DNA of 29,471 nt from a virus: positions 1-29,471 of the IMG/VR virus record IMGVR_UViG_3300027734_000238. One strand, given 5' to 3'. Every line of letters starts with the position of its first letter. The first letter of the stretch is position 1. The notes under the pieces are model-generated. The model had not been told where the DNA came from. It saw only the letters and a list, made by a program, of their open reading frames with translations, and did no database searches. Positions 4,554-28,951 of this stretch are shown here, in pieces. The position numbers and the translations under genes are program-made.

Positions 4554-5138
4554 TTAATGTCCTTCAAAAAATCTTTTTTGTCCTACTTTTGTAGGATATG
4601 AAACTGCTACTGGAATTGGTAATTTGCCACCTGGATAACAAACAAATTGTGGATATTCCGTTTCCACAACTCTATAGAATTGTGCTTTTAATGTACGATC
4701 ATGTTTGAGTGCGTGCCATGGCATGCCGCCAAAATATTCATCGCTGATTTTAGTGGCCACAACGTTGGGTAAATCTATCCATTTCCATCCAATAGTGCCA
4801 TCAGGCATATATGGACCCAGTGGATCAGCAACACCTTTTTCGGCCATTGTTCTATAATCTTTAACCGCTTCAATGATTGCTTGCATGTTCATTTGTTCAC
4901 GTTGAATATAAAACTTGCCATCTTCACGGCCTGTGGTAACTTTGATGTTGCCGCTTTTGTTTAAATCTGTTCTGGTCCAATCGCCTTTTAGGCTGCGGTA
5001 TAACTTGTCGTTTTGTAATAGTTTGTCAGCTACACCATTGTGGTTAGTAACAGTTCCACCGTGATCTTGTCGCCAGTAATTTAAATTCTTTTCTGGATCT
5101 GTGTCACTTAGGTATTCGGGTTGATTAATATCGTTCAT
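4554..5138 (-). CDS. Unknown head/connector-region protein, probably leaderless
   Basis: 194 residues, not recognised. It is mixed and hydrophilic with a Trp/Gly-rich centre (YMPDGTIGWKWIDLP) and a Pro/Tyr-rich C-terminal part (QFVCYPGGKLPIPVAVSYP), without membrane segments. It lies between the major capsid and adaptor genes, so a head-completion or connector role is plausible, but no motif proves it. The ATG has no Shine-Dalgarno sequence. Instead GCTAAATA ends exactly 5 nt before it, and a hairpin after the capsid gene precedes that. The gene therefore seems to be insulated from capsid transcription and started from its own promoter. Confidence 0.75.
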   Translation of the reverse strand: MNDINQPEYLSDTDPEKNLNYWRQDHGGTVTNHNGVADKLLQNDKLYRSLKGDWTRTDLNKSGNIKVTTGREDGKFYIQREQMNMQAIIEAVKDYRTMAEKGVADPLGPYMPDGTIGWKWIDLPNVVATKISDEYFGGMPWHALKHDRTLKAQFYRVVETEYPQFVCYPGGKLPIPVAVSYPTKVGQKRFFEGH

Positions 5139-5143
5139 AGTAT

Positions 5144-5151
5144 TATTTAGC
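5144..5151 (-). promoter_or_regulatory. Late-promoter-like octamer GCTAAATA, 5 nt from ATG
   Basis: On the minus strand GCTAAATA is followed by ATACT and then the ATG at 5138. In T4-type late promoters the -10 element TATAAATA covers about -13 to -6, so +1 would coincide with the A of the start codon. No Shine-Dalgarno sequence is present. The same arrangement recurs at 14962-14969 and 15333-15340. Confidence 0.6.
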
Positions 5152-5163
5152 GTTTTAAACGAC

Positions 5164-5185
5164 GAAAGGGTCTTGCGACCCTTTC
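5164..5185 (-). terminator. Hairpin after the capsid gene, likely terminator
   Basis: Perfect 9-bp inverted repeat GAAAGGGTC / GACCCTTTC with a 4-nt loop (GCAA on the minus strand, a GNRA tetraloop). It lies between the capsid stop (5207) and the next promoter motif (5144-5151). The downstream T content on the minus strand (GTCGTTT) is modest, so it could also be an mRNA-stabilising or processing hairpin. Confidence 0.55.
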
Positions 5186-5206
5186 TTATAGTTTTACTAC
5201 TTGATA

Positions 5207-6427
5207 TTAAGAAGTAGAACCTGGACCAGCGTTTACACGACGGACTAATCCACTAGCACGTGGAGTAGTAACAAGTGTAGTACCAGTTGTGACGTTGTTT
5301 AACATACCAACACCTGCTGGGTTACGTACGATCAGCGTACCTTCCATCAAGAATTGATCTAAACTAGCATCAGCAGAACTGAATACTTCGTTGTTAGGAC
5401 CTAGGTCACGTAATGAACCCCACTGCAACACGTCTTCGTTCAAGAAGTAAATGCTGTTAGAAACACCGGATTGGTCCATGATCCAAGAATCATAGATTTC
5501 GTATGTGTAACTGAAGTCACCTTCGTATGTTTGAATCGTGTCACCACGCTCAACGTTACGACGGTTTACGCTTGTGTTAGAACTAACAATGTTATCACTG
5601 ATAGTAGTTCTTAAACTTGTTGGAACAACCATGGTACGGATCTTAGCGTTATAACGTTGTTCAGCTGTGGTTACCAATTGCTTGTATAACACTGGGCTGA
5701 ATGTTTGGTTAAGAGGACCAGATCCACCGTTTGTGTAGTAGTAATTACCATTGGCCACAACGTACAATGCGTTGACACCACTTGGGCTACCTGTCAATTG
5801 GCTCAATGTTGTTGAACTTGAATCACTGCTGGGTGCGTTGTAATTAGTTATCAAACCAGCTTCTGTAGTAGAAACTGTGCTGAAACTCATAGTACCAGCA
5901 TAAGATGCCAGTGAACCCATACGACGACCAGAAGTGCTGGTTGGTACACCACCAGCACCACCAGGAGCAGTACCTGTTTGACCACTGTACTGAGTACCAA
6001 TTTGGTCGTTACGAACCAATTGTTGTTCCACGTCAAACATCAATTCAATTAGCTGTTTAACTTCCTGATATGCCTGCGGATCTCCCCCGCTCTGCATAAC
6101 AGCACGAGCAGTACCAGTGGCACCAATCGTAGTTTGGAAGATCTGTGTGAAGTTGTTCAAGTTGTAACGCTGATTTGCTTCTGCGTTGTTTGCACTAACT
6201 AATGCACCTTCTGTAACAGCGTTAACTGCTGGCAAACGATAAATGTCGTCTGTCCACAATGGTTGTGTAGAGTTAACTTTGCGTTTCTTTGACATACACA
6301 TGTTTAGAACTGGTGTATCATCTTTAACGCGGTTAGACACATCTAGGTCTAAATCTTTGACAACGATGTCAGTTGCAAATGCACCAGTACCATTGCCAAT
6401 ATTTGTAGTATTAATAAATCCTGCCAT
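5207..6427 (-). CDS. Major capsid protein (SU10/DUF5309-like)
   Basis: 406 residues, the usual size for this group. Residues 88-142 read NNFTQIFQTTIGATGTARAV, then QEVKQLIELMFDVEQQL, then a charged stretch, followed by GRRMGSLASYAG near 166-178. This pattern (an asparagine-rich strand, a 'TQIF...V..TA.AV' strand, a long spine-like helix with E-L-..D-E-Q, then 'R.MGSL..Y') is what I know from the SU10 major capsid / DUF5309 family with the HK97 fold. A Ser/Thr/Gly-rich segment (about 185-235) may be a surface loop. Start supported by AAAGGAG upstream. It directly follows the scaffold-like gene and is followed by a strong hairpin, as expected for the most highly expressed virion gene. Confidence 0.85.
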   Translation of the reverse strand: MAGFINTTNIGNGTGAFATDIVVKDLDLDVSNRVKDDTPVLNMCMSKKRKVNSTQPLWTDDIYRLPAVNAVTEGALVSANNAEANQRYNLNNFTQIFQTTIGATGTARAVMQSGGDPQAYQEVKQLIELMFDVEQQLVRNDQIGTQYSGQTGTAPGGAGGVPTSTSGRRMGSLASYAGTMSFSTVSTTEAGLITNYNAPSSDSSSTTLSQLTGSPSGVNALYVVANGNYYYTNGGSGPLNQTFSPVLYKQLVTTAEQRYNAKIRTMVVPTSLRTTISDNIVSSNTSVNRRNVERGDTIQTYEGDFSYTYEIYDSWIMDQSGVSNSIYFLNEDVLQWGSLRDLGPNNEVFSSADASLDQFLMEGTLIVRNPAGVGMLNNVTTGTTLVTTPRASGLVRRVNAGPGSTS

Positions 6428-6445
6428 TTTAGGCTCCTTTAAATT

Positions 6446-7606
6446 TTATCTACCACCTCTGCCCGCTTTCAATCTTTGAAGCTGAGCCATTAAGAGGTTG
6501 TCTCCGGCTTTCTTATCACCAGAATTGGCTTGTTCACGAAGTTTTTCAATATTGTCGTTGGGACCTTTGTTGGTATTGCTTGAACCTTTACGGTTTGTCA
6601 ATACTGCCATGCTTGCTCCTGCTGATTTAGTAGTGGGTTTGTCTCTATATTTCAAACCATCTCTAATTAAACCTAACAATGTCTCATCACTGCTGATAAG
6701 GTCAATGTTTGGAACTCCCGGTACAATTTCTCGTTTGGCGTGAGGATAGACTTTTTCAATCTTTTCACGTAGCTCATTATACACATACTCGTTTTTCAAT
6801 TCCTTATCGGTAAATGATTTGCGACTCTGTGTCAAAGCTTCGTAGACCTGCTCTTTACGGATCTGTCTAAACTGTTCTATGGCAGGCTGGATCTTGCTGA
6901 TCTGTTTTTGTTGCTGCCTTATATACTGTTCATTTTGAGCCATATTCGCTTGTAATCTCGCGACTTCAACTGGATCTTGTGTTCTTGCCAACTGTTGTTG
7001 AAATGTATTTTGATAGCCTTGTACTTTGACTATTTCATTATACGCTTTCTGCAACTTAGGCTGAACTGTGAATTCCATGGCAAGAGTAAGACCATCTTGG
7101 CGTTGTCTAGCTTCATTGACATATTCGTCAAATTCGGCTCGCTCCACTTTCAACTGTCTTGCGTCTTCGTGTATTGCTGATCCTTGACCTAAAATACTAG
7201 CGGCTTTCTTAGCATCAACTATGACTTCTTTGCCATTCTTCATGAATTTGAATTTGGCGTTGGGGTTTGTTTCTGCAAACTCCACGAAGTCAATTAAATC
7301 TTCTGCTGTAGAATCAGTACTGTCAGTGCTTACCTCTTCAGGGGCGGCTGCTTCCGGATTGTCGCTGTCATATTCTTCAGTGTCTGTATCACCAACTTGG
7401 GCTCCATTGGGAGCCACAGAACCAGATTCATCTGCCGATGAGTCAGGACCTGTTGCAGTTTGATTTGGGTTAAGAGTTTGATTACGCTGAGATTGTGATC
7501 TCATAGCGGTCATTTTATCTGCAATAACTTGATCCAAACTTGGTACTGCGCTTTGTTCAGTGGCCGCCGGCGCTTGTGGCTGGTTAGGCGTGATCGTTGT
7601 TTCCAT
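6446..7606 (-). CDS. Probable capsid scaffolding protein
   Basis: 386 residues and very hydrophilic. The N-terminal third is Gln/Pro/Ser/Thr-rich and acidic (DTDTEEYDSDNPEAAAPEEV). The middle and C-terminal parts are strongly helical and coiled-coil-like (RQRQDGLTLAMEF, QNTFQQQLARTQD, EQYIRQQQKQISKIQPAIEQF), ending in a basic, Gly-rich tail (QRLKAGRGGR). A helical, charged protein with a basic C-terminus directly upstream of the capsid gene is the classic scaffold position in P22-like and related phages. AAAGGA precedes the ATG and the gap to the previous gene is 11 nt. The role is inferred from position and composition; no catalytic protease residues are recognised. Confidence 0.65.
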   Translation of the reverse strand: METTITPNQPQAPAATEQSAVPSLDQVIADKMTAMRSQSQRNQTLNPNQTATGPDSSADESGSVAPNGAQVGDTDTEEYDSDNPEAAAPEEVSTDSTDSTAEDLIDFVEFAETNPNAKFKFMKNGKEVIVDAKKAASILGQGSAIHEDARQLKVERAEFDEYVNEARQRQDGLTLAMEFTVQPKLQKAYNEIVKVQGYQNTFQQQLARTQDPVEVARLQANMAQNEQYIRQQQKQISKIQPAIEQFRQIRKEQVYEALTQSRKSFTDKELKNEYVYNELREKIEKVYPHAKREIVPGVPNIDLISSDETLLGLIRDGLKYRDKPTTKSAGASMAVLTNRKGSSNTNKGPNDNIEKLREQANSGDKKAGDNLLMAQLQRLKAGRGGR

Positions 7607-7617
7607 TTATTTTTCCT

Positions 7618-7956
7618 TTAAGCATCGGGCACTTGCGTGTTACCGATGCGGCTTTTTAAGTAAACTGCCCTCTTTAGGCTATTCACAAAATTATCAATGC
7701 CCGCTAATTCATTGCTTATGGCAATTCTGCGAGCGTTGTCGTCTGGTTGATGACTACGAATGGAAGCTAATTCATCGGCCAGACTAAACTTAAAATGATG
7801 AACAAACATAGCTAAATCTTTGTTCTTCAATAATCCTTCAGCAGTACTGCCATAATGTATAACACGATCGCGTTGGCTTGGTGTTAACTTGCTGGGTTGA
7901 CTAACGTCAACTGTAAGTCTGCTGTTGTAAAAATCTACGGTGTCGTTTTCTATCAT
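7618..7956 (-). CDS. Small unknown protein between portal and scaffold
   Basis: 112 residues, not recognised. Predominantly helical and charged (TPSQRDRVIHYGSTAEGLLKN, FKFSLADELASIRSH), with no signal or membrane segment. It sits between the portal and scaffold-like genes. The ATG lacks a clear Shine-Dalgarno sequence (TATAGAATAGAAC precedes it), and an ACTAAATA late-promoter-like octamer ends 17 nt upstream. A minor head or portal-associated role is possible from context only. Confidence 0.65.
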   Translation of the reverse strand: MIENDTVDFYNSRLTVDVSQPSKLTPSQRDRVIHYGSTAEGLLKNKDLAMFVHHFKFSLADELASIRSHQPDDNARRIAISNELAGIDNFVNSLKRAVYLKSRIGNTQVPDA

Positions 7957-7973
7957 GTTCTATTCTATAATGT

Positions 7974-7981
7974 TATTTAGT
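7974..7981 (-). promoter_or_regulatory. Late-promoter-like octamer ACTAAATA
   Basis: Lies between the portal stop (7984) and the ATG at 7956, with 17 nt between octamer and ATG. The following bases ACATTAT are the same as after the 14962-14969 octamer, but here the trinucleotide 5 nt downstream is ATA rather than ATG. A TATAGAAT sequence lies in the leader. Confidence 0.5.
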
Positions 7982-7983
7982 GT

Positions 7984-10269
7984 TTAACTATAAACCTTTG
8001 GGTCGCCCATGGCCATGGCCATAAAGTCCAACTGTGACTCAGCATCTTCACCTGCCACTTCAGCGGCAATCTGCTGTGCTTTGACCTGTGCAAGTTCAGC
8101 GTCTGCAAGGAACTTCTTGTCTTGTGGACTTGGACCTTTAGCTTGTTGACTTTGTTGTGCGGCTTGAACCATCTTAACAACTTCTTCATCACTGGGCAAG
8201 TACGCATTACAGTCTTTGACACCCAATGTATACAATGTATCAGCGTAGGGCTTTTTAACTTTCTTATACATTTCAGGTGTCATGATGCCTTGTTGAACCA
8301 TGCCTTGAACACTTTGCAATAAACCTGTTTGTGCTTTTTGTATAATTTGTAGTCTGTTCAATGAGTTTTCTTCACTCATCATGCCCACGGCTAATTCTAA
8401 TTGTAGTTGTTTGCGGTCTGTCATTGAAGTCATGCTGTCCCAACCAATGTAATCCATGAACTCTGGTTTGCGATCTGGTCTGCATTGTCCAGCGATTTTC
8501 TTAACTCCGTAGTCATCACCATATTGAATCAATGTGCGCCATATCAAATACAGTGCTTCTTTGAGGCCTTCCGCGGCATTGCGTACTGTGTTGTCTTGAA
8601 TAATTTGGTTTGGACTTAGTGCAAGTTGTAGTTTAACACCACTGTTGCCTGCGGCCATGACTTCTGGATTGAATACGTCCTGTGGAGTAGTCATACCAAC
8701 CATGGCCATGACGTCTTTTTGTATACGGTCCATGCTTTGTGTTAAGAACGCTAGGTTGCCGCTGGGAGGAGGAATTTGGTAAATGTCTGTGGCTGGATTA
8801 AATTTTGAATCCAGAATAAAGATAGCTGATTCGCCATCCTGCAACATTTCAAAGTCTAGTCTGTCTGGTTTGACACCAATGCGTGGTGTAGCAGTTAACA
8901 AGCCCAATTGTATTTCTGCACGAGCCGCTGATGTTGAATATTCCTGCATGGGAATAACTGATTCAGCAATACTCATTCCGTAGAAGTTGCCGGGTAGGGG
9001 TTTTGGTACCATGTTGGCCACAGGAATGAATTCTACTTCACGTGCAGAAATAATATAACTGCCGGAATAGATAACTTCAACCAGTTCTAATTCACCATCA
9101 CCATCAATGTCATATCTGTTCCAAACAGTGACAATACTTACTTGACGGCTGTATGGATCAGCTGATGCCGCACTGCTCACTGGAATACCCATGATGGGCA
9201 CTGAATCACGTGCGTGAATAGCCAAGTTGTTCAACACTGAACCTGCTTGGTAAGCACCGCTTTGATTGTATTCTGCGTGTTCAGTGAATTCTTCTAAATT
9301 GATATCTGGATACAGTTCTGTGGCTTCCTGTATGGTCATTGGATCATAGTAACCACAGAATGGTTGATCCTTCATTTCTGGCACTGTGGGATCACAGACC
9401 CAGTAGTGCTGTGCAATAGGATGGAACTTGATGTTGATCATGTAGCCAGTTAACTTGTACTTGGCTTTGTAAATTGTGTTACGCTTAATAGCTTCGTTGA
9501 TGATGCTTTCTTGACCTTCAATGTTTTTGGCAAATATTTCTGTTTGGCCTTGTGCCAATGAAGTATAATTATCGTCTTCGTCTGCTTCACGCATACTGTC
9601 AATGTGCTTGTCCATGAGCTCATTGGTAATTTCTGTTTTTTGGTCACCCATTAACTGTTGTATTTCAGCCATGGCGGCCTGCAAGTTTACATTGATTTGT
9701 CGCTTGCTTTGGCGCAGTGTTGTCAATCCGGATTCAGCGGCCTGTAGTTCAAAGGCTTTTAATTGTTCATTGGTGCCTTCTGTTTCTATATAACGAGTAA
9801 TTTGTTCACGCACCGGTTTGATCATCATCATACCATTTTTGTGCATAGCGGCATCCATGACCCAACGCTCTAGAATAAAGTGCGGATCATTCATTTGGTT
9901 AACAACTTTTGACACCATGCTGGTAGCTTGACGTGCGGCTTCATCATCCCATTCACCGTCAGCTACAAATTCAAAGTTGATTTCGCCATTGGGCATAAGG
10001 CCTTTGGCAATAACTGCTGTGGCGTAATCTACAATAGGCTTGACTGTAGGATGTATGTAATCAATGCCGTTAACGGGTGCAGTACTGTCAGTGACTGCCA
10101 AACATAGATAGTGATAATCGCTGGCTCTGTTAACAGCGTTCTTTGTGCCTAGATAACGCAGGTAACTGGCCATCTTAGTGTCCATCATGCTTTTCATACG
10201 CACAAAGTTGGCGTTGATTTTTTTGTTTCTATTGATGTCCAATATTGGAATATTTTTTATGTCTAACAT
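7984..10269 (-). CDS. Portal protein (P22-like)
   Basis: 761 residues, close to the length of P22-type portals (about 725). The dodecameric portal is the DNA channel and packaging-motor docking site at one capsid vertex. Recognisable features: an N-terminal part with HPTVKPIVDYATAVIAKGLMP; a central charged helical section (residues about 170-260); a WNRYDIDGDGELELVEVIYSG stretch near 390-410; the wing/stem region KPLPGNFYGMSIAESVIPMQ followed by SAARAEIQLGLLTATPRIGV, typical of these portals; and a Gln/Ala-rich C-terminal helix (barrel-like, EVVKMVQAAQQSQQA...AELAQVKAQQIAAEVAGED). It lies downstream of the terminase. AAAGGTAA is upstream of the ATG, with GCTAAATA 28 nt before it. Confidence 0.85.
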   Translation of the reverse strand: MLDIKNIPILDINRNKKINANFVRMKSMMDTKMASYLRYLGTKNAVNRASDYHYLCLAVTDSTAPVNGIDYIHPTVKPIVDYATAVIAKGLMPNGEINFEFVADGEWDDEAARQATSMVSKVVNQMNDPHFILERWVMDAAMHKNGMMMIKPVREQITRYIETEGTNEQLKAFELQAAESGLTTLRQSKRQINVNLQAAMAEIQQLMGDQKTEITNELMDKHIDSMREADEDDNYTSLAQGQTEIFAKNIEGQESIINEAIKRNTIYKAKYKLTGYMINIKFHPIAQHYWVCDPTVPEMKDQPFCGYYDPMTIQEATELYPDINLEEFTEHAEYNQSGAYQAGSVLNNLAIHARDSVPIMGIPVSSAASADPYSRQVSIVTVWNRYDIDGDGELELVEVIYSGSYIISAREVEFIPVANMVPKPLPGNFYGMSIAESVIPMQEYSTSAARAEIQLGLLTATPRIGVKPDRLDFEMLQDGESAIFILDSKFNPATDIYQIPPPSGNLAFLTQSMDRIQKDVMAMVGMTTPQDVFNPEVMAAGNSGVKLQLALSPNQIIQDNTVRNAAEGLKEALYLIWRTLIQYGDDYGVKKIAGQCRPDRKPEFMDYIGWDSMTSMTDRKQLQLELAVGMMSEENSLNRLQIIQKAQTGLLQSVQGMVQQGIMTPEMYKKVKKPYADTLYTLGVKDCNAYLPSDEEVVKMVQAAQQSQQAKGPSPQDKKFLADAELAQVKAQQIAAEVAGEDAESQLDFMAMAMGDPKVYS

Positions 10270-10297
10270 ATGGGCGAATTACCTTTAGTATATCTAT

Positions 10298-10305
10298 TAT
10301 TTAGC
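10298..10305 (-). promoter_or_regulatory. Late-promoter-like octamer GCTAAATA before portal
   Basis: GCTAAATA followed by ATAGATATAC; 28 nt separate it from the portal ATG. A start 6 nt after the octamer would give a leader of about 23 nt with AAAGGTAA as ribosome-binding site. It overlaps nothing coding, lying just after the stop of the small gene ending at 10311. Confidence 0.55.
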
Positions 10306-10310
10306 GTTTT

Positions 10311-10508
10311 TTAATCCGGTAAAATAATTCTAGGGCGATGCAATTCGTCCTGCAGGTCGCAGGCATGACAACGAGCTGTTAGTGCATCTTCATCATCCAA
10401 TTCATATATTGTGTGAGGTGTCATTGCTGTGCAAGCGGCTATTTCAAATGATTTAGCATGGCGTTCACACAATATCATTGTGTTTTGTTCTATGGCACAG
10501 ATAAACAT
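10311..10508 (-). CDS. Small Cys/His-rich protein, unknown
   Basis: 65 residues. It contains CERH (residues 14-17), C25 and RCHACDL (46-52), suggesting a possible zinc-binding fold, although spacing is not a textbook zinc ribbon. An alternative start is the internal Met11. The first ATG overlaps the previous stop (TAATG) and has AAAGGAC 9 nt upstream, so I prefer it. It lies between the terminase and portal; function unknown. Confidence 0.55.
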   Translation of the reverse strand: MFICAIEQNTMILCERHAKSFEIAACTAMTPHTIYELDDEDALTARCHACDLQDELHRPRIILPD

Positions 10509-10723
10509 TACAGTGAGTCCTTTAACTTAGCAAGTTCTTCATGTGTTAAGAACATTTCAAACCTACGTTCAAATATACTTTGACTCAGTATTTGTATGTG
10601 CCAAACTGATGTTGCTTCAACCCAAGTCTTTTTGACTCGTAATTTGTAATCTTCTGTGTTGATTACATCATGTTCTTCTCGTGGTGCTTGTCCACCATAT
10701 ACATGTATTTGTCCGTGTTTCAT
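10508..10723 (-). CDS. Small unknown protein after the terminase
   Basis: 71 residues, unrecognised, charged and soluble. Its C-terminal FLTHEELAKLKDSL resembles the RLDHEELKRLTDYL part of the 66-residue protein at 12343-12543 on the other side of the terminase, so the two may be distant paralogues. AAGGAC precedes the ATG; its stop overlaps the next gene's start. Confidence 0.6.
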   Translation of the reverse strand: MKHGQIHVYGGQAPREEHDVINTEDYKLRVKKTWVEATSVWHIQILSQSIFERRFEMFLTHEELAKLKDSL

Positions 10724-10732
10724 TGCTTGTCC

Positions 10733-12343
10733 TTATTCTGGTGAAAACGTTTGTTTCCACGCTGGTCTATTTGTGTATTCTCTAGATACGTATTTGTCTC
10801 GCTGTGCTGCCATGCGTTGTTGCGGAGTTTTATTATCCCAGGGTTCTGCTATGCCTTGTAGGCAAGCCAATAGAGCATACCTAGCACTATCAATGCAGTC
10901 ATCTGGATCACTAAATCTTCCTTTTTCATCTACATAGTAGTTAGTTGCTTCGCTCAAGAATTGTGTGCAATTCTCATTGACCATTAAACTTCCTACTTCT
11001 AACATTTGTCGCATTTGGTTGATACCATATGCTTTGTGGTTAGTGACTCTGCCCTGTGGATCTGGCGGATTCATAATAGCTTTATCATAGACATTAAGTT
11101 CATACTGTTCAAATAATTCACGAATGCTGTTGGCACTCATAGTGTATCTGCCAGCAGTACTAGCGTCAGCAGGTAAAACGATAGGAGTACCGTACACTTC
11201 AGGACGAAGTAAATGATTGATATACTGAGTGGGGACAGCTTCTTCAATGCCCTGCACAACAATTTGTCTATGTAAAAAAGCAGTCTTCTCATGTGGTTCC
11301 CAATACATTAATGATATAACAGTTTTGTCGTTGACCAAGCCCAAGTCCAAGGCAATAACTCGTTGTATGCGTGGCATGCGTAAAAAGTCAATTTCACCTG
11401 TTTTATATGTGGGCCAGTTGCCGATTTGAAATACTGCACCTTTACCCATGACAGGCTTACCAGCAATACGTGCTTCACGTTCATGCGGCAAGTAATCTCG
11501 TTCCAATTGACGGCGTGTTTCATAGAGCAAGAATGGCATGCCCCATGGATCCATTTCAGGAACATCATCCCATGCCACACGAATAAATTCATAGCCTGTT
11601 TCTTTGTTCCAAAATTTACTTACAAGTCCGTTGAGGCCTTTGAGCGGTGTGAACGAACATAAAACTTTGCCCTGCGTGGTAGCAGTTCTAGTAACGATTT
11701 CACTGAAAAAGTCATCCGGTGGCTGCTCGTCAAACACCGCCAAATTAAGTTTGAAACCTTGTAGTTGCCTAACTTCCTGTGTGTAGTTAGCAAATAATAG
11801 ATAACTGTTAGTACCACTGACGTGCCGGATCTCACAGCCGATGTTGTTAGCACCATCGTTACGCATAGTATCAACAACAATACAATCACGGGGGACAGCA
11901 CCAGTGCCCAAATTTTCTGTAATCTTAACATCCTGTGTTCCTAATAATTCATTTTGCAATACCAGGGCAACCTGACTCCAACCTTCACCTGCTACCATGC
12001 AGGTAATGGGTTGTGTAAATCTATGTCCCTGCCACCAATCAGGATAAAGTCCAGTTAGGTGCATGGCAGTTTCATAGCAGGTACTCACAGTTTTGCCAAT
12101 CCTGTTTGCCGCAAGTATTCCTCGGCGTTCACTGTTGCCAGTTAAAAAGAATTTCTTTTGATGTTCAAAGGGTCTAAAGTATTTGAGCTGATTATACCGC
12201 ATGTCATCGGCAACGGCAATGCTCAAATCCATTAGTTCAGTTTTTACATCGCCATTTAAATTAGCCAAGGAATCCAATGTTAGGTCATACTTGTCCACTG
12301 CCCAACGTAATGCACGGCTCATTAATATTTCATTACCCAACAT
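10733..12343 (-). CDS. terL: Terminase large subunit
   Basis: 536 residues, normal length for a phage packaging ATPase/nuclease, which cuts concatemeric DNA and drives it through the portal. Visible motifs: Walker A-type GILAANRIGKT (residues 75-85), then TAMHLTGLYPDWW-like sequence (ETAMHLTGLYPDWWQG, 91-106), typical of the P22-like terminase group; Walker B LNLAVFDEQ (199-207) with the D-E pair 205/206; a coupling-like SFTPLKG (230-236); and the RNase H-like nuclease start VIALDLGL with Asp333. The ATG is preceded by AAGGTTAC and overlaps the previous stop (TAATG). Confidence 0.92.
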   Translation of the reverse strand: MLGNEILMSRALRWAVDKYDLTLDSLANLNGDVKTELMDLSIAVADDMRYNQLKYFRPFEHQKKFFLTGNSERRGILAANRIGKTVSTCYETAMHLTGLYPDWWQGHRFTQPITCMVAGEGWSQVALVLQNELLGTQDVKITENLGTGAVPRDCIVVDTMRNDGANNIGCEIRHVSGTNSYLLFANYTQEVRQLQGFKLNLAVFDEQPPDDFFSEIVTRTATTQGKVLCSFTPLKGLNGLVSKFWNKETGYEFIRVAWDDVPEMDPWGMPFLLYETRRQLERDYLPHEREARIAGKPVMGKGAVFQIGNWPTYKTGEIDFLRMPRIQRVIALDLGLVNDKTVISLMYWEPHEKTAFLHRQIVVQGIEEAVPTQYINHLLRPEVYGTPIVLPADASTAGRYTMSANSIRELFEQYELNVYDKAIMNPPDPQGRVTNHKAYGINQMRQMLEVGSLMVNENCTQFLSEATNYYVDEKGRFSDPDDCIDSARYALLACLQGIAEPWDNKTPQQRMAAQRDKYVSREYTNRPAWKQTFSPE

Positions 12344-12543
12344 TAATGTAACCTTACTTGTGCTAGTTTAAAATGTAGATAATCAGTTAAACGTTTAAGT
12401 TCTTCATGGTCTAATCTTAGATGTACTAAGAAGTCCGGTTTATCATCATGATTGAATCTAAATGAGAGTTCAAATTCATCAGGACCCGTCCATATTCCGC
12501 CTACATCTAATGCACTTGTTTCATCATGAGTTAGGTTGAACAT
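12343..12543 (-). CDS. Small unknown protein before the terminase
   Basis: 66 residues, acidic, unrecognised. A beta-like middle (GPDEFELSFRFNHDDKPDFLVHL) is followed by LDHEELKRLTDYL, resembling the end of the protein at 10508-10723. It overlaps the preceding gene by 20 nt and its stop overlaps the terminase start, so it is embedded in the same translationally coupled string. The ribosome-binding site is weak (AGAGAT). Confidence 0.6.
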   Translation of the reverse strand: MFNLTHDETSALDVGGIWTGPDEFELSFRFNHDDKPDFLVHLRLDHEELKRLTDYLHFKLAQVRLH

Positions 12544-12838
12544 GTTTTATATCTCTGTGTATTTGATATACGTTGTGCAATGCTTGACTCAGTGCGGCAA
12601 TTTCATCGGCTGTGGCAGTCCATGTTGCAGGATCATTTAATGCGGTGGGTTTATTGGTCAGTATGGCTTGTAAACGTTCCGCTATCAAACGCATGACATG
12701 CTCACATTGGCCAGGAAACTTTTCCACAAATGCTTCTCTATGTGCGGCATTTACTTTTTGTAGTATTAAAGTATCTTTGACTATGCGAGCTTGTTGCGCT
12801 TGATATATTGCGCCATCTCTAGGAGTATGGTCTGTCAT
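12524..12838 (-). CDS. Small helical protein of the packaging cluster, unknown
   Basis: 104 residues from the ATG at 12838, chosen because AAGAAG precedes it and because it follows the previous stop by one base; an upstream ATG at 12907 would overlap that gene by 68 nt. Largely helical (GAIYQAQQARIVKDTLILQK, TADEIAALSQALHNVYQIH) without membrane segments. Not recognised. Its place upstream of the terminase would allow a packaging accessory role, but nothing in the sequence shows it. Confidence 0.6.
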   Translation of the reverse strand: MTDHTPRDGAIYQAQQARIVKDTLILQKVNAAHREAFVEKFPGQCEHVMRLIAERLQAILTNKPTALNDPATWTATADEIAALSQALHNVYQIHRDIKHVQPNS

Positions 12839-12839
12839 A

Positions 12840-13640
12840 TTAGTTGCTTCTTGTGTCAGTGCCCCATGGGTCAACAATAGCTTCACTGTTAAACTGTCCA
12901 AAGTCACGGTCTACGAATGTGTCCCAAAAATTACCTTTGTTAATTTTCATACTCTGCATCATGGTACGTAGTCTACGTCCCACTGGAGTCAGCGTGCCAT
13001 CATCACGCTGAATTGTTTGTTCGCCTGAACATTTGCCAAGCCATTTGATAATCTCTGGACGTTCACGACCAAATTTGTCAATTTTTGTGCCATGCGGTAC
13101 TTTTTCCCATGGACCATTGATTTCATAACTGATTGTGCCATCGTTGTATTTGCGGAATGTGCAATGACATTTTTTACCCACGGCTCTAGCGTCTGGATCC
13201 GGATGCGGAACAAAAGGACTAAAGAAATAATTTTGCAATTCGCTTTCGGGCGGTAAAGTAGGATCACGTGCGGGAATTTCTGGAAATGGTTCTTCGGGCA
13301 CCATTTCTGCTTTATCTAGATATGGATTTTCACCGCCAATAAAATTAGTGTCAATGTCTTGTCCGTTGAGAGCATCCATGGCCACTTGATATTTTAATTT
13401 GTTGGCACGACCTTTTAAGTTTAAGACAATCCCCGTTTCATCAAAGACAAATCTCTCAAGTTCTTTGGCCGTGGGAAAGTCGGTCATTAAACCTTCCATG
13501 TCGTATTCAGCGTTACTTATTGAACGTGGCGCAATGCCAGCAACTTGATTTGCTACTTCAATTATTTCTTGGGGTGTTGGAGAAGCGTCATCTTCCCATG
13601 GGCTGGCTACGTCTGTAGGCGTGGCTGTTTTCTTAGTCAT
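12840..13640 (-). CDS. Unknown 266-residue protein upstream of terminase
   Basis: Soluble, Pro- and charge-rich protein, not recognised. The N-terminal 40 residues are low complexity (TPTDVASPWEDDASPTPQE). Residues 75-105 (ERFVFDETGIVLNLKGRANKLKYQVAMDAL) look folded and helical. The C-terminal half has KKCHCTFRKYNDGTISYEINGPW and KWLGKCSGEQ, three Cys that might bind metal. The end is SEAIVDPWG. AAAGGAAATGAA precedes the ATG. Twin hairpins and a possible GTTAAATA promoter lie in front of it. Confidence 0.6.
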   Translation of the reverse strand: MTKKTATPTDVASPWEDDASPTPQEIIEVANQVAGIAPRSISNAEYDMEGLMTDFPTAKELERFVFDETGIVLNLKGRANKLKYQVAMDALNGQDIDTNFIGGENPYLDKAEMVPEEPFPEIPARDPTLPPESELQNYFFSPFVPHPDPDARAVGKKCHCTFRKYNDGTISYEINGPWEKVPHGTKIDKFGRERPEIIKWLGKCSGEQTIQRDDGTLTPVGRRLRTMMQSMKINKGNFWDTFVDRDFGQFNSEAIVDPWGTDTRSN

Positions 13641-13659
13641 TTCATTTCCTTTATATAAA

Positions 13660-13681
13660 CAGGGAAACTATTGTTTCCCTG
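13660..13681 (-). terminator. Perfect 9-bp hairpin, terminator or leader element
   Basis: CAGGGAAAC / GTTTCCCTG with a 4-nt loop (AATA on the minus strand), followed on that strand by TTTATATAAAGGAAATG, so a T-rich run leads directly into the Shine-Dalgarno of the 266-residue protein. It may terminate transcripts from the 131-residue gene, or sit in the leader and control translation. Confidence 0.5.
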
Positions 13682-13696
13682 CCTACTATGCTATAT

Positions 13697-13712
13697 TGAG
13701 ACTATTGTCTCA
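13697..13712 (-). promoter_or_regulatory. Second hairpin with the same AATA loop
   Basis: TGAGAC / GTCTCA, 6-bp stem, loop AATA on the minus strand, 15 nt upstream of the larger hairpin. The two share loop and closing pairs (GA-A/G-AC-AATA-GT-C/T-TC), suggesting duplication or a shared binding partner. Confidence 0.4.
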
Positions 13713-13716
13713 TTTG

Positions 13717-13724
13717 TATTTAAC
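13717..13724 (-). promoter_or_regulatory. Weak late-promoter-like octamer GTTAAATA
   Basis: GTTAAATA, a one-base variant of the recurrent octamer, just after the stop of the 131-residue gene. If used, the leader would be about 70 nt and would contain both hairpins. Confidence 0.25.
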
Positions 13725-13726
13725 CT

Positions 13727-14122
13727 TTAAAAGTTATTAAAACTTTGTGTGGCATTTTGGTTTTGTTGTGGAACTTGGTTACCAAAATTTTGGCCAAAAG
13801 ATTTACCGCCGCCGCCAAATATACTGCCGGGCATCATGCCCGCACTCTTACCGTTACCGTACTGCCCTTGTTGGGGTTGACCAATATTCTGTTGTTGAGT
13901 TGATGGAGGTTGGCCGAATTGTTGCGGTGCACCTGGTAGTGGGCCTGGGCCAAAACCAACACCAGGTCCTAGATCTGGGCGAGGTGTATAAGGGCCACTA
14001 GGCATGCTTGGGCTTGGGCTTGGGCTTGGGCTTGCAACATTATTCAACAAGGGTGCTAGCCCAGCAAGGCCACCTTGCATATTAGCACTGGGATTGAATT
14101 GTTGATAAGATCCAAAACTCAT
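13727..14122 (-). CDS. Low-complexity Gly/Pro/Gln-rich protein
   Basis: 131 residues dominated by Gly, Pro, Gln, Asn and Ser, with SPSPSPS (DNA: a GGGCTT-type hexamer in tandem), GFGPGPLPG and FGGGGKSFGQNFG. No fold can be assigned; probably disordered. It starts after AAGAAG and closely follows the gene upstream. It belongs to a group of small disordered proteins between the possible small terminase and the terminase. Function unknown. Confidence 0.6.
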   Translation of the reverse strand: MSFGSYQQFNPSANMQGGLAGLAPLLNNVASPSPSPSPSMPSGPYTPRPDLGPGVGFGPGPLPGAPQQFGQPPSTQQQNIGQPQQGQYGNGKSAGMMPGSIFGGGGKSFGQNFGNQVPQQNQNATQSFNNF

Positions 14123-14124
14123 GA

Positions 14125-14430
14125 TTACTTCTTAGGTGCTTTGTATTTTGCTGGCAACTTAGCACCATTGGCAGTAGAGTTTTTCTTTGCACCAACGTTG
14201 GTGTCTGCGCTTAGACCTTCAACAGCTGGATCACGGAAACTTTTCATGCCTTCACCACGACGAGCAACTGCACTAGTTACCATGTCGGCTAGAGCACTTT
14301 TCTCATTGCCTGTGCTGGCTTTTTCTTTCATGAACGTTGAACGCTTACCGCCTGCATCCATGTTGCCAGTTGTGGGACCACGCTTTTGGTTGATCTCTTT
14401 TGCCTGCATGTTTTTTGTAGATATTCTCAT
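14125..14430 (-). CDS. Small basic protein with RGPTxGN motif
   Basis: 101 residues, Lys/Ala-rich and basic, probably disordered in part. KRGPTTGN at residues 16-23 matches KRGPTVGN and GRGPTKGN in the neighbouring 128-residue protein. The C-terminus is KLPAKYKAPKK. AAAGGAAATC precedes the ATG, which overlaps the previous stop (ATGA). Not recognised as a known family; the basic character would allow DNA or capsid-interior binding. Confidence 0.65.
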   Translation of the reverse strand: MRISTKNMQAKEINQKRGPTTGNMDAGGKRSTFMKEKASTGNEKSALADMVTSAVARRGEGMKSFRDPAVEGLSADTNVGAKKNSTANGAKLPAKYKAPKK

Positions 14431-14813
14431 ACTTGATTTCCTTTAGTTGGGCCACGACCCATGTTAATTTTGTCTGCGTTGCCCTTGTAGTTTTGACCTT
14501 CACTGGGCATAAATGCTCTAGTGCCAGGAAAACGTCCGCCACCACTTTCACGTACTTGTGGATTGGCTGAACCAGGGAACATGTCTTTGCCTGGAGTAAA
14601 CTTTGGTAATGCGGCAGCATCTGGATATGTGCTGTCATCGTCACTCTTGTTGCCTACTGTAGGACCACGTTTGTTGTTAAACGTTTTGTTCGGGTTTTGG
14701 ATACCGCTGTGTTGGTTACCGGCGAATTTGTTTGCACCACGATTAACGCCATTACCTGCCATGCCGTTAAAATCTAAGTTCATATCGCTTTGTGTAATGC
14801 TATTATGCTTCAT
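14427..14813 (-). CDS. Small Asn/Gly-rich protein with two RGPTxGN motifs
   Basis: 128 residues, Asn/Gly/Pro-rich. Copies of the motif are NKRGPTVGN (about 47-55) and GRGPTKGN (about 119-126), and the protein ends one residue after the last copy. Other segments (FTPGKDMFPGS, GRFPGTRAFMPSEG) suggest an extended chain. Overlaps both neighbours by 4 nt (ATGA). AAAAGGA precedes the start. Function unknown. Confidence 0.65.
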   Translation of the reverse strand: MKHNSITQSDMNLDFNGMAGNGVNRGANKFAGNQHSGIQNPNKTFNNKRGPTVGNKSDDDSTYPDAAALPKFTPGKDMFPGSANPQVRESGGGRFPGTRAFMPSEGQNYKGNADKINMGRGPTKGNQV

Positions 14814-14956
14814 TTCATTTTTCCTTTTTTGCTTGCTGCCGCTCTCTTAGTAGAGTATGCGATTGCCACGGCCTGTTTAGGAGGCTTACCTGCGGCGATT
14901 TCTTTTTTAACATTCTCTGTGAATGCTTTTTTGCTGGTTGATTTTTTTAACGGCAT
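14810..14956 (-). CDS. 48-residue basic protein, probably leaderless
   Basis: A short gene beginning MPLKKSTSKKAFTENVKK and containing EIAAGKPPKQAVAIAYSTKR. The 'EIAAGKPxKQAVAIAYS' pattern is one I associate with small conserved phage proteins of unknown function. It is Lys-rich, helical and ends in KKGKMK. Its TGA overlaps the next ATG (ATGA). No Shine-Dalgarno sequence precedes the start; instead an exact TATAAATA ends 5 nt upstream. Confidence 0.75.
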   Translation of the reverse strand: MPLKKSTSKKAFTENVKKEIAAGKPPKQAVAIAYSTKRAAASKKGKMK

Positions 14957-14961
14957 AATGT

Positions 14962-14969
14962 TATTTATA
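14962..14969 (-). promoter_or_regulatory. Exact T4-type late octamer TATAAATA, 5 nt from ATG
   Basis: TATAAATA then ACATT then ATG on the minus strand. It overlaps the TAA stop and last codon of the preceding gene. The predicted +1 coincides with the start codon; no ribosome-binding site is present. Confidence 0.65.
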
Positions 14970-15327
14970 CTTGTTTGACCCCAGTAAGTTTGCTCAATGC
15001 TTCTGCAAAGGCCAACTGCTTGGCTTGAACTGCGTCTTCGCTGTCAGTTACTTCAATTTTAGCTAGAGTATTCATAACTTTGTTTAGAATCAAATTATGA
15101 TACTTTAACACTACATTCTTATCACCTTCATTGCGAGCTGATATAAAATCTTCAACTAGTAATTCTTCGTAACGCTGTCCGCCTGTGCGGGATTCTAAGC
15201 TGGACAATAAGTCTTCTACGCTGACGTGATTCTTACTGCCTTTTTTACGGCCAGCATTGGGGCGAGCTCCGCCACGGCTGGAGATCTTTTTCTTTTCTTT
15301 GGGTTGTTCTATGCTATCTGTTTTCAT
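14965..15327 (-). CDS. Possible terminase small subunit / DNA-binding protein
   Basis: 120 residues. The basic N-terminus has SSRGGARPNAGRKKGSKN (residues about 17-34), the 'GGARPxAGRKKGS' pattern often seen at the start of phage small terminases and similar DNA-binding proteins. The rest is helical and charged (SVEDLLSSLESRTGGQRYEE, VVLKYHNLILNKVMNTLAKI). It lies at the head of the cluster that leads to the large terminase, consistent with TerS, although about 2.6 kb of small genes intervene. There is no Shine-Dalgarno sequence; GCTAAATA ends 5 nt before the ATG. The TerS assignment is an inference; a regulator is the alternative. Confidence 0.55.
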   Translation of the reverse strand: MKTDSIEQPKEKKKISSRGGARPNAGRKKGSKNHVSVEDLLSSLESRTGGQRYEELLVEDFISARNEGDKNVVLKYHNLILNKVMNTLAKIEVTDSEDAVQAKQLAFAEALSKLTGVKQV

Positions 15328-15332
15328 AATAT

Positions 15333-15340
15333 TATTTAGC
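15333..15340 (-). promoter_or_regulatory. Late-promoter-like octamer GCTAAATA, 5 nt from ATG
   Basis: GCTAAATA-ATATT-ATG on the minus strand, with no Shine-Dalgarno, again predicting a leaderless transcript. Only 3 bp separate it from a plus-strand ATTAAATA. Confidence 0.6.
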
Positions 15341-15343
15341 AGG

Positions 15344-15351
15344 ATTAAATA
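15344..15351 (+). promoter_or_regulatory. Possible divergent promoter octamer ATTAAATA
   Basis: Plus-strand ATTAAATA with 22 nt to the ATG at 15374; the leader carries AGGA. It differs from the main motif by one or two bases, so it is weaker evidence than the minus-strand copies. Confidence 0.35.
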
Positions 15352-15948: not shown

Positions 15949-16380
15949 TTAATCTAATGTGCTACGCAACATCCAAATTGACTTTTCTATGTCCAAGGCT
16001 TGGTCTTGTGCGTAGTTACTGATTTCTTCTAGACCTTCATCACTGGCAATTATAATCAGTGCTTTATAATCTTCTAGTAAATGTTCCAAGTCCATCATCA
16101 CAGTTTCTAATAACTCATCTGCTTTGCCTTCAATGGCATCTGTGGGTATTGTACTGTCTGCTACAACTTCTGTGATATCGCAGGGCATGTATTCTTGCAT
16201 GGTGCGTAGTAGTTCACCAATCTTATCAATCTCTGCTTGTCTACGTTCATAGACACCCTGTAGTAGTTTATGGTCACTGCGGAAATTGCGACCTGTGATG
16301 TTTACATGTGCCGCATGACTTCTAAAATAAGCAACAAAGTTATTTTTAAAGAGTTGTGTTAGTAGTTCTGCTGTTGTCAT
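15949..16380 (-). CDS. Dps/ferritin-like protein
   Basis: 143 residues, close to a minimal Dps (about 150-170). Dps proteins form 12-mers that oxidise and store iron using H2O2 and often protect DNA. Features: HVNITGRNF (residues 25-33), matching the HWNxxGxNF signature; then SDHKLLQGVYE (35-45), IDKIGE (51-56), and a C-terminal EKSIWMLRSTL, matching the conserved HExxxWMLR end. Aligned to E. coli Dps, ferroxidase ligands H51, H63, D78 and E82 correspond to H25, H37, D52 and E56, whereas D67 corresponds to Gln41. There is no Lys-rich N-terminal DNA-binding tail. AGGAC precedes the ATG, directly after the ejection-type gene. Fold assignment is strong; iron oxidation is likely but untested. Confidence 0.8.
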   Translation of the reverse strand: MTTAELLTQLFKNNFVAYFRSHAAHVNITGRNFRSDHKLLQGVYERRQAEIDKIGELLRTMQEYMPCDITEVVADSTIPTDAIEGKADELLETVMMDLEHLLEDYKALIIIASDEGLEEISNYAQDQALDIEKSIWMLRSTLD

Positions 16381-16381
16381 A

Positions 16382-17455
16382 TTATTGTCCTGGTGCTATG
16401 GGGCTTAAAATTCTGCTTGCGGCTCGTTGTCTAACGCCTGATTTGACCAACGCTTCTAAGTGCGCTCTGCCGCCGTAGATATTTATAGTGCGCTGATCAT
16501 CACTTTGTAATAGGTTACTGGCTTCCTGTGGACTTAATGGAGCAGGAGTAGGACGGTTTAACATCATCTGTTGTGCTTCTACCATTCTGTTTTTTGCACG
16601 ACCACTGGTTAATTCTGGTCCTGCTTGTTCTAAGTATGGTGCGGCTTCGTATAAGTTATAGGCCATACCTGCAGGACCGGCTACTCTAGCGGCACCTTTC
16701 AATATTGGACTAACAATTTTCATTGCTTGACTGCCATAACCTGGTACTGCTTTGAGATATTCCGCGGCTTTTGCGGCAAATTCTGGATTAGCAGCCTGTG
16801 CGGCACGACCTTCTGCAGAATTTAACCAACTGCGAACAGCGTTATTGCCACCGCCACCGGTTTTTGCTCCATATAGTTCAGTGAGTTTTTGGCTGACTTC
16901 AGGAGTTGCGCTTTTACTCATTTGTATGTATGGTTCAATGGTAGTAGTTGTTGGCGCACCACGCACTGGTGTTGTGCTAGGAGCACCTTGACTCAGTACT
17001 TGACTGCCAACGTTTTTACTAGCTTCTAAGGCTTTGTATTTGTCATAGGCACCCATGGCACTTTGACTTGCAGCCACAGGAGGAATACCAATTGTAGCCA
17101 TGCCTATTGCATCTGCCAATGGCGCCATTATAGGACTTGCTTTGTATATATTGGCCACGTCGCGTCCACCCTGGATCAAACTTTGTGCCAATGGTCTAGC
17201 AACAGAAAAAGCATCCCGGCCCAGCTGGCCAGCACCAGTTGCACCCATACCATAACCTGTTACCGCGGGAGCAACTGCACCTAACAATGCACCTTCACTG
17301 GGTGCAACTGGTCCTGTGGGTGCTGTGGGCGTTGTGGACTCCGGCTCCGGAGCTTCTTGGGCCAAGAACGCATCAACATCAAAAGCTTTAGCGGGTTCGC
17401 TGTCAGTTTCTTTTTTTTCTTCTTGGGCTAAAAATGCATCCGGATCAAAGGCCAT
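16382..17455 (-). CDS. Internal virion (ejection-type) protein with FDxDAFLAQE repeat
   Basis: 357 residues. The N-terminus has FDPDAFLAQEE and, 20 residues later, FDVDAFLAQEA, a duplicated short acidic motif. Then come a Pro/Thr-rich linker, a Gly/Ala-rich amphipathic or weakly hydrophobic region (GALLGAVAPAVTGYGMGATG, ASPIMAPLADAIGMATIGIP), and a helical C-terminal half (AQAANPEFAAKAAEYLKAVPG). This composition is typical of proteins packaged in podovirus heads and ejected ahead of the DNA. AGGAG precedes the ATG; it follows the transglycosylase gene by one base. Role inferred from composition and neighbours. Confidence 0.6.
   Translation of the reverse strand: MAFDPDAFLAQEEKKETDSEPAKAFDVDAFLAQEAPEPESTTPTAPTGPVAPSEGALLGAVAPAVTGYGMGATGAGQLGRDAFSVARPLAQSLIQGGRDVANIYKASPIMAPLADAIGMATIGIPPVAASQSAMGAYDKYKALEASKNVGSQVLSQGAPSTTPVRGAPTTTTIEPYIQMSKSATPEVSQKLTELYGAKTGGGGNNAVRSWLNSAEGRAAQAANPEFAAKAAEYLKAVPGYGSQAMKIVSPILKGAARVAGPAGMAYNLYEAAPYLEQAGPELTSGRAKNRMVEAQQMMLNRPTPAPLSPQEASNLLQSDDQRTINIYGGRAHLEALVKSGVRQRAASRILSPIAPGQ
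16480..16487 (-). promoter_or_regulatory. TATAAATA inside the coding region upstream of Dps
   Basis: Exact TATAAATA within codons for T-I-N-I of the 357-residue protein, 99 nt before the Dps-like ATG. It may be chance, or an internal late promoter giving extra Dps expression. Confidence 0.25.
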
Positions 17456-20768: not shown

Positions 20769-20776
20769 TATTTAGC
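20769..20776 (-). promoter_or_regulatory. Late-promoter-like octamer GCTAAATA
   Basis: GCTAAATA followed by ATAAAAATAAAGGAAATT on the minus strand; 22 nt to the ATG at 20746. Predicted leader of about 17 nt with a good ribosome-binding site. Confidence 0.55.
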
Positions 20777-21990: not shown

Positions 21991-21998
21991 TATTTATG
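21991..21998 (-). promoter_or_regulatory. Late-promoter-like octamer CATAAATA
   Basis: CATAAATA on the minus strand, 25 nt before the ATG at 21965; it lies within a GCATAAATATGC near-palindrome. AGGAC is in the predicted leader. Confidence 0.5.
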
Positions 21999-27263: not shown

Positions 27264-27271
27264 TATTTATA
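27264..27271 (-). promoter_or_regulatory. Exact TATAAATA before the nozzle-like gene
   Basis: TATAAATA followed by ATGTAATAATAGGAATCCACG and the ATG at 27242 (21 nt). The predicted leader of about 16 nt keeps AGGAA as ribosome-binding site. Likely start of the tail transcript. Confidence 0.6.
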
Positions 27272-28436: not shown

Positions 28437-28546
28437 ATGTCTCCTTGTATGTAAGTGTATTTACCTTTACGTATCTTAATATCATAGACAGACATCCCGG
28501 GTTGATGTAGTGCATATAGGTGTTTGCTACGCCAACACCAAACTCT

Positions 28547-28578
28547 GTTGTTTGCTTCGCTGTTGGCTCACAAACAAC
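28547..28578. repeat. 8-bp inverted repeat
   Basis: GTTGTTTG and CAAACAAC separated by 16 nt. Strand of any RNA product is unknown. Confidence 0.5.
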
Positions 28579-28597
28579 TCGTTTACATATGCTACGC

Positions 28598-28650
28598 AGT
28601 AAAAATAGAAGAGACAGATGAACGAACGTCAGTGAGTGGCCTGTCTCTTC
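28598..28650 (-). terminator. Candidate rho-independent terminator, minus strand
   Basis: On the minus strand GAAGAGACAG / CTGTCTCTTC forms a perfect 10-bp stem with a 23-nt loop and is followed by TATTTTTACTG. It would end transcripts coming from the DUF3820-like gene before the metallopeptidase cassette. The long loop lowers confidence. Confidence 0.4.
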
Positions 28651-28669
28651 CTCTGGCGACGCGTCAGCG

Positions 28670-28848
28670 TTGACAGTTAATGTTTGTGTTTGTTACTAAA
28701 AGAGAATAAGACCCCTCCCCCCATTTGATTTACTACTGGAATGTAGCTAAGTTCAAACCGTGCCCGACGTAGGGTATAGACGCATAAAACTTATGCTCGT
28801 GTGAAAACCTTTCCCAAGGTGTTGCCACGAGCGGCTTGTTTCGTTTTT
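28670..28848 (+). ncRNA. Speculative plus-strand structured RNA
   Basis: TTGACA (28670-28675) with a poor -10 (TACTAA, 18 nt later) precedes a stretch with the GCATAA/TTATGC hairpin and the GCTCGTG/CACGAGC stem enclosing ACCTT/AAGGT, ending with GTTTCGTTTTTTA (28839-28850). This order (promoter-like, structured, T-run) fits a short RNA antisense to the main transcription direction. Only inspection supports it. Confidence 0.25.
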
Positions 28849-28951
28849 TACAGACTTTGCTTATCACTTAATGGGACGACCCGCAAGTTCTAAGTTTTGG
28901 TCTCTGCCACGCACAGAGAGGACATGTGTCGCTGGGGATAACTGAATTATC

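Follow-up and report, generated by a model that had tools for sequence, protein, structure and literature searches.

Late genes of T4-type bacteriophages are transcribed from a compact promoter, an 8-base-pair (bp) element without a −35 box that is read by the phage proteins gp55, gp33 and gp45 and has the form TATAAATA in T4 and NATAAATA in S-PM2, according to the accessible parts of the published accounts (PMC2988020, PMC2984593). In the T4 late geometry outlined there (PMC2988020), the octamer occupies positions −13 to −6, and transcription begins about 6 nucleotides (nt) after it. A similar octamer of the form NMTAAATA (M stands for A or C; the phage group differs from T4 in that AC and GC are the most frequent first pairs, giving CTAAATA) occurs in the window studied here, which is the whole of the IMG/VR virus record IMGVR_UViG_3300027734_000238, 29,471 bases from an uncultured lake phage. 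As judged from comparative sequence analysis, at three genes of this window the octamer is probably a T4-like late promoter that starts the mRNA at or near the A of the ATG start codon, the message being read without a Shine–Dalgarno (SD) sequence, and four of the five other genes at which it stands farther upstream are probably SD-led.

Phage mRNAs without a leader or an SD sequence are also described for lambda and for the Thermus phage phiYS40 (PMC3594737 for phiYS40; PMC3160421 for lambda; PMC9031893), the promoters of which differ from the window octamer. In the available account of phiYS40, most middle and late transcripts are leaderless (PMC3594737), whereas in the group of phages around the window leaderless and SD-led genes appear to share one promoter type. 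Another paper remarks that phage transcripts are often leaderless and that those of AR9, by contrast, have leaders of 26–491 nt (PMC5312081). Bacterial leaderless genes follow a shared logic, in which a −10 box, TANNNT, is fixed about 12 bp before the start codon (excerpts of PMC3160421); these boxes are sigma70-like, whereas the window group would use a T4-type octamer in phages. Late promoters read by a phage sigma factor are reported for the podophages phiEco32 and 7-11, that of phiEco32 being a single element (PMC8948821), and the late promoters of phiKZ carry TATG at the start site (PMC4666361). These elements differ from the octamer (tAATGTAtA in phiEco32, GTAAtg-16-aCTA in 7-11, and TATG with +1 at the G in phiKZ), and the accessible portions of both accounts make no mention of leaderless starts. 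Moreover, no report of leaderless mRNAs at T4-type late promoters was recognised in a search of the open-access literature, as far as the excerpts of those texts extend; the parts of the present arrangement are already known, and it is their combination that was not met there.

Three octamers on the minus strand of the window stand exactly five nt ahead of an ATG and lack an SD sequence, and all of them are present at the places and spacings that a preliminary description of this DNA had given. They are listed with their spacers and genes, each with its basis in brackets.

5144..5151, minus strand: promoter octamer GCTAAATA, leaderless class, predicted for the 194-amino-acid (aa) gene (sequence; homologous contexts).
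5139..5143, minus strand: five-nt spacer ATACT; transcription is predicted to start (+1) at the A of the ATG at 5138 (sequence, start-site signature).
4554..5138, minus strand: 194-aa gene, predicted leaderless, no assigned function (open reading frame, ORF; codons 2–10 under purifying selection in homologues).
15333..15340, minus strand: promoter octamer GCTAAATA, leaderless class, predicted for the 120-aa gene (sequence; homologous contexts).
15328..15332, minus strand: five-nt spacer ATATT, followed by the ATG at 15327 (sequence).
14965..15327, minus strand: 120-aa gene, predicted leaderless (ORF and family alignment; N-terminus of the GGARPGAGRKKGSK type in the family).
14962..14969, minus strand: promoter octamer TATAAATA, leaderless class, predicted for the 48-aa gene; it contains the stop codon of the 120-aa gene at 14965–14967 (sequence; homologous contexts).
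14957..14961, minus strand: five-nt spacer ACATT, followed by the ATG at 14956 (sequence).
14810..14956, minus strand: 48-aa gene, predicted leaderless, of PHROG 2423, a family of unknown function (PHROG match; codons 2–10 strongly conserved).

Five other octamers of the window lie 17, 28, 22, 25 and 21 nt from an ATG, with an SD-like sequence in all except the first. This too agrees with the earlier account, which had distances of 17–28 nt and an SD sequence in four of the five.

7974..7981, minus strand: octamer ACTAAATA, 17 nt to the ATG of the 112-aa gene, no SD (sequence).
10298..10305, minus strand: octamer GCTAAATA, 28 nt to the portal ATG, with SD (sequence; homologous contexts).
20769..20776, minus strand: octamer GCTAAATA, 22 nt to the ATG of the 238-aa gene, with SD (sequence).
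21991..21998, minus strand: octamer CATAAATA, 25 nt to the ATG of the 394-aa gene, with SD (sequence).
27264..27271, minus strand: octamer TATAAATA, 21 nt to the ATG of the 1133-aa gene, with SD (sequence).

In the mechanism proposed for these sites, the octamer would act as a T4-type late promoter made of one −10-like element with no −35 element. At the three genes RNA polymerase would start at, or within 1–2 bases of, the start-codon A, and the resulting mRNAs would begin with 5'-AUG, carry no SD sequence and be translated by the leaderless route, in which 70S ribosomes directly bind the 5'-AUG. Ahead of the portal gene and the 238-, 394- and 1133-aa ORFs, the same promoter would lie 21–28 nt upstream and produce a leader of about 16–23 nt with an SD sequence. 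We infer the promoter activity of the octamer, the transcript start, its lateness and the ribosomal mechanism from what the compared sequences show, namely conserved spacing, bimodal distances, SD absence, a pyrimidine before the A, ATG-only starts, first-codon selection in two genes and a hairpin ahead of one.

Most long ORFs of the window lie on its minus strand, including those for the portal, the large terminase and the major head protein. By these three proteins, the closest annotated relative is Podoviridae sp. ctfne034 (MW202484; 41,762 bases, circular), with identities to the window of 50% for the terminase, 45% for the portal and 58% for the head protein. The head protein retrieved 179 relatives from viral contigs, of which 80 were kept; 56 loci were added through the 194-aa gene and 48 through the 120-aa gene. 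Upstream sequences of homologues were anchored at the start codon and collapsed to unique contexts, defined by the last 40 nt plus 9 nt of the gene, with the complete relative L189 omitted from the counts. Loci were excluded if the match started past residue 25, if the start was unfindable, or if fewer than 45 nt lay upstream, which retained 132 of 136 loci for the 194-aa gene, 57 of 60 for the 48-aa gene, 56 of 69 for the 120-aa gene and 78 of 130 for the portal.

The octamer precedes the ATG by 4–7 nt in 81 of the 87 unique contexts of the 194-aa family (56 at exactly 5), in 30 of 39 for the 48-aa family (29 at 5) and in 28 of 43 for the 120-aa family (25 at 5). In the portal family this close placement is found once in 58 contexts; the octamer lies at least 15 nt away in 56 of them, all 56 with an SD sequence. 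The major capsid family has no close octamer (0/74). A few contexts of the 194-aa (5/87) and 48-aa (4/39) genes have the octamer at least 15 nt away, always with an SD sequence, and this distant minority is, as far as the sequences indicate, the same putative promoter with another translation signal. Translation mode appears to be largely kept gene by gene, and the two classes could differ in the timing or amount of their products, as the preliminary description proposed.

When all 463 unique octamer contexts of the fetched loci are considered, the distances to the ATG are bimodal. With the ATG required to open an ORF of at least 40 codons, 179 octamers lie at 4–7 nt (136 at exactly 5), a share that is inflated because the loci were fetched partly via two of the leaderless genes; 18 lie at 8–15 nt and 102 at 16–30 nt, and for 95 no qualifying ATG occurs within 60 nt. 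There is no apparent reason why fetching via leaderless genes should create the gap between the two modes. Such a gap is expected if transcription starts about 5–6 nt after the octamer, as a leader of a few nt would provide neither a 5'-AUG nor room for an SD sequence. The same distribution bears on the idea that the octamer, being AT-rich and near the ATG, is an AU-rich translation signal rather than a promoter. This is extremely improbable, given the two separate distance classes and the position of the portal octamer, well upstream of an SD sequence that itself stands near the ATG.

A chance origin in AT-rich intergenic sequence has some basis only in the octamer taken by itself, which shows no clear enrichment in the window (CTAAATA 5 vs 4.3 expected, TATAAATA 3 vs 1.3 expected). 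The full arrangement of octamer, five nt and ATG occurs three times against 0.26 expected, a number reached in one of 100 shuffles. Among six control words, four give 3–13 close placements in 339–824 contexts, compared with 179 of 463 for the octamer, and the other two, which share part of their sequence with a shifted octamer, give 36 of 454 and 71 of 344. With the layout conserved across unique contexts as well, chance is refuted, and its probability is close to nil.

Translation signals divide the two classes in the same way. No SD sequence falls within the predicted transcripts of the close class, in which an SD-like match is found in 12 of 152 contexts over a scan range (−19 to −5) that lies entirely upstream of the predicted +1. 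Such a match is present in 98 of 111 distant contexts and in 472 of 571 contexts without an octamer (Fisher p 3e-43 for close vs distant, a value that is too small because the rows are related). The start codon is ATG in all 152 close contexts and in 105 of 111 distant ones, the remaining 6 being non-ATG. Leaderless starts require AUG in E. coli, according to the accessible text of PMC9031893, and the ATG-only starts of the close class are in line with this. The first codons were compared with upstream pseudo-codons in close-spaced contexts with a matching start only (75 for the 194-aa gene, 30 for the 48-aa gene and 13 for the 120-aa gene). The share of single changes that are synonymous is 0.50 in codons 2–10 vs 0.26 upstream for the 194-aa gene and 0.78 vs 0.09 for the 48-aa gene, and this excess indicates that those codons are translated. 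A downstream in-frame ATG with an SD sequence was found in none of these contexts (0/75, 0/30 and 0/13, respectively).

Bacterial transcription usually starts at a purine preceded by a pyrimidine. At the five-nt spacing, the base before the ATG is a pyrimidine in 113 of 113 cases (T in 97, C in 16), compared with 190 of 551 contexts without an octamer and 42 of 105 distant contexts; a pyrimidine is also found in 11 of 12 six-nt and all four seven-nt cases. On a tree of the 194-aa protein (83 rows, with changes counted on the 53 five-nt rows), this base switched between T and C at least 11 times and is a purine in none of the rows. The pattern points to a start-site signature at the A of the ATG. 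Additionally, in neither class does any of the 40 positions ahead of the octamer rise above 0.44 bits, and a −35 element is therefore absent.

The three genes might alternatively be translated mainly by coupling, from mRNAs started further upstream, with the near octamer weak or idle. At the 48-aa gene such coupling is conceivable, since the 120-aa stop codon falls inside its octamer and lies 8 nt from the 48-aa ATG. The 120-aa gene, for its part, faces a divergent plus-strand ORF, and an idle octamer would not be expected to hold its distance. For the 194-aa gene the following feature is relevant.

5164..5185, minus strand: terminator-like hairpin that separates the major capsid gene from the 194-aa promoter, with a weak T tract (seen by eye in the window sequence).

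Homologues of the 194-aa gene are preceded by a hairpin with a T tract in 80 of 87 contexts, a count outside which the window's own hairpin falls, against a shuffle mean of 2.0 (five rounds) and 0 of 58 portal contexts. Transcripts from upstream are accordingly a less likely source of the 194-aa mRNA, and coupled translation as the main route for the three genes is very improbable.

T4-type phages differ among themselves in this layout. A scan from which starts were removed if their frame extends more than 10 codons upstream found no octamers at 4–8 nt in T4, Syn9 and S-PM2, and 22, 22 and 17, respectively, at 15–32 nt; without the filter, T4 and S-PM2 have one close case each. Unlike these three, the window group has 179 of 368 ATG-preceding octamers at 4–7 nt, in loci fetched partly via the genes in question. 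The corresponding filtered counts (4–8 and 15–32 nt) are 12 and 5 in HTVC008M, 7 and 19 in Mosig, 3 and 17 in Melnitz, and 3 and 24 in P-SSM4. Close placements of six A/T-rich control words range from 0 to 5 per phage overall (HTVC008M 0–5, Mosig 0–3, Melnitz 0–1, P-SSM4 0–2), which makes the excess clear in HTVC008M, less so in Mosig, and weak in Melnitz and P-SSM4.

HTVC008M (NC_020484) is a cultured T4-type ocean phage of Pelagibacter. When T is also permitted at octamer position 2, 16 of its 198 annotated genes have the octamer 4–8 nt before the ATG (13 in an unfiltered count at 4–7 nt), and 2 of the 16 have an SD-like sequence. Among the 16 are gp010, gp014, gp019, gp026, gp027, gp053, gp063, gp092 and gp093. 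According to their annotations, these genes include head closure, DNA end protector, tail tube cap, baseplate wedge and tail completion proteins. The base before the ATG is a pyrimidine in 14 of the 16, vs 85 of 173 other ATG genes (p 0.003). Annotations of this phage include a late sigma factor and a putative late promoter transcription factor, and the gp33 co-activator and gp45 clamp of the T4-type system are likewise annotated; the octamer precedes structural genes here, in a phage with a late sigma factor, which resembles the T4-type system.

This layout makes the leaderless idea directly testable, with 16 concrete start sites in a cultured phage. It was found in a group, the SAR11 myophages, for which prediction of middle and late promoters by methods taken from cyanomyophages was reported to have given no satisfactory results, as stated in the available part of PMC7029224; the genome of Melnitz was searched for a T4-like late motif in the work describing it, according to its accessible text (PMC9004378). 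Leaderless phage mRNAs are known from few cases, such as lambda and phiYS40, and the present data suggest a conserved class of them within T4-type promoters, in lake phages and at least one cultured ocean phage. The suggested rule, octamer plus five nt plus ATG, may be missed by start-site prediction based on SD sequences.

Several results weigh against the view that the octamer is a late promoter for leaderless mRNAs, and they concern homologues, start sites and the factor that would read the element. The preliminary prediction of leaderless mRNAs with a kept five-nt spacing holds for most homologues, which retain 4–7 nt (mostly 5) without an SD sequence and show the signature at the A of the ATG; the exceptions are the SD-led minority of the 194-aa and 48-aa families and 15 of the 43 contexts of the 120-aa family, which have no octamer. 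In the latter family, codons 2–10 also do not differ from upstream sequence (0.17 vs 0.19). The 78 contexts of the 112-aa family (window 7618–7956) comprise 12 close, 17 distant, 4 other and 45 without an octamer, and an SD sequence accompanies 4 of the distant ones, which indicates that distance and SD are not always coupled and speaks against a simple two-class rule. In the complete relative MW202484, no octamer precedes the portal, 48-aa and 238-aa homologues; its two pieces contain nine octamers, one of them ahead of an SD sequence and an ATG. The contexts, drawn as they are from related phages, are not independent of one another. The distant class has no pyrimidine/purine step at the same place, and among T4-type phages a clear excess over the control words is limited to HTVC008M.

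The four-nt subclass also lacks the signature, with a pyrimidine before the ATG in 9 of 23 cases and a G in 14; among 194-aa homologues (e.g., L024, L034 and L104) it often reads CAAG-ATG. The transcription start there may be off the A. This would suit a variant in which the octamer is a promoter and transcription starts 1–3 nt before the ATG, producing a very short leader with no SD sequence. Starts at single-element phage promoters do vary, lying 6–8 bp downstream for phiEco32 in the accessible account (PMC8948821). The variant is nevertheless unlikely, since the five-nt mode (136 of 179) and its invariant pyrimidine indicate the A itself.

As regards the factor, neither the window nor 18 relatives (32–40 kilobases, kb, none known to be complete) yielded a match to Pfam sigma-70 region 2, and a protein search with T4 gp55 gave no match in the same 18, with T4 as a positive control. 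A four-sequence gp55 profile run against six-frame ORFs reached best E values of 2.6 in the group loci, 1.2 in the window and 0.44 in three further contigs (L283–L285), reached from the helicase of one relative. The longest of these three contigs, L285 (IMGVR_UViG_3300025451_000005; 26.6 kb), is of a different phage type with an SPP1-like portal and contains octamers, e.g., GCTAAATA before the portal gene. In 8 relatives, 87 ORFs that lack a homologue in the window were selected, and PHROGs and Pfam searches covered 77 of them; no sigma factor appears in the 20 Pfam families matched, nor in the 25 PHROG families listed out of 68, whereas a primase-polymerase, a helicase and methyltransferases do. 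The window group differs from the T4 system in having no detected gp55 relative, in genomes that may be partial. The window element appears to work like a T4-type late promoter, but the window phage is at most a candidate member of that system.

A broader reading is tentative and rather doubtful. In it, one T4-type promoter serves two translation modes, which are set for each gene individually and kept across aquatic phages that are not related to each other, namely T4-type SAR11 myophages and the uncultured lake phages, whose head and packaging module is podophage-like. The arrangement would be a post-transcriptional switch: with the late-infection changes in ribosome and initiation-factor pools, the ratio of leaderless to SD-led products would shift from one promoter class. 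In the smaller phages no late sigma factor is detectable, and they would rely on one supplied by the host or by a T4-type phage infecting the same cell.

Two additional octamer-like sites of the window are not listed in the preliminary description.

15344..15351, plus strand: ATTAAATA, 22 nt before the ATG at 15374 of a 162-aa ORF, with an AGGA sequence (sequence).
16480..16487, minus strand: a perfect TATAAATA inside a 357-aa ORF, about 100 nt ahead of a ferritin-like gene (sequence).

The first of them and the minus-strand octamer at 15333–15340 stand back to back on opposite strands, 3 nt apart.

The 120-aa protein is possibly a small-terminase-like DNA-binding protein; a Pfam search of the window protein gave no hit. 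Structure models of the 194-aa and 120-aa proteins (predicted local distance difference test, pLDDT, 71.6 and 73.4) had no PDB match at E ≤ 0.001. Two scans of genome contigs aimed at finding the host recovered no relative, and an Rfam scan of the window at gathering scores returned no match. This includes the stretch at 28437–28951, an inter-ORF gap of about 515 bases that contains no ORF of at least 50 aa, which is atypical for this dense window. A tRNA-Gln gene is present in 2 of 16 pieces of relatives and absent from the window. A long stretch of the 394-aa ORF (20781–21965) is repetitive and of low complexity, and an open frame of 260 aa runs antisense to it (21073–21855, plus strand). 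The ferritin-like gene (Pfam Ferritin) at 15949–16380 is part of the structural block, and 43 of the fetched loci contain a match to it.

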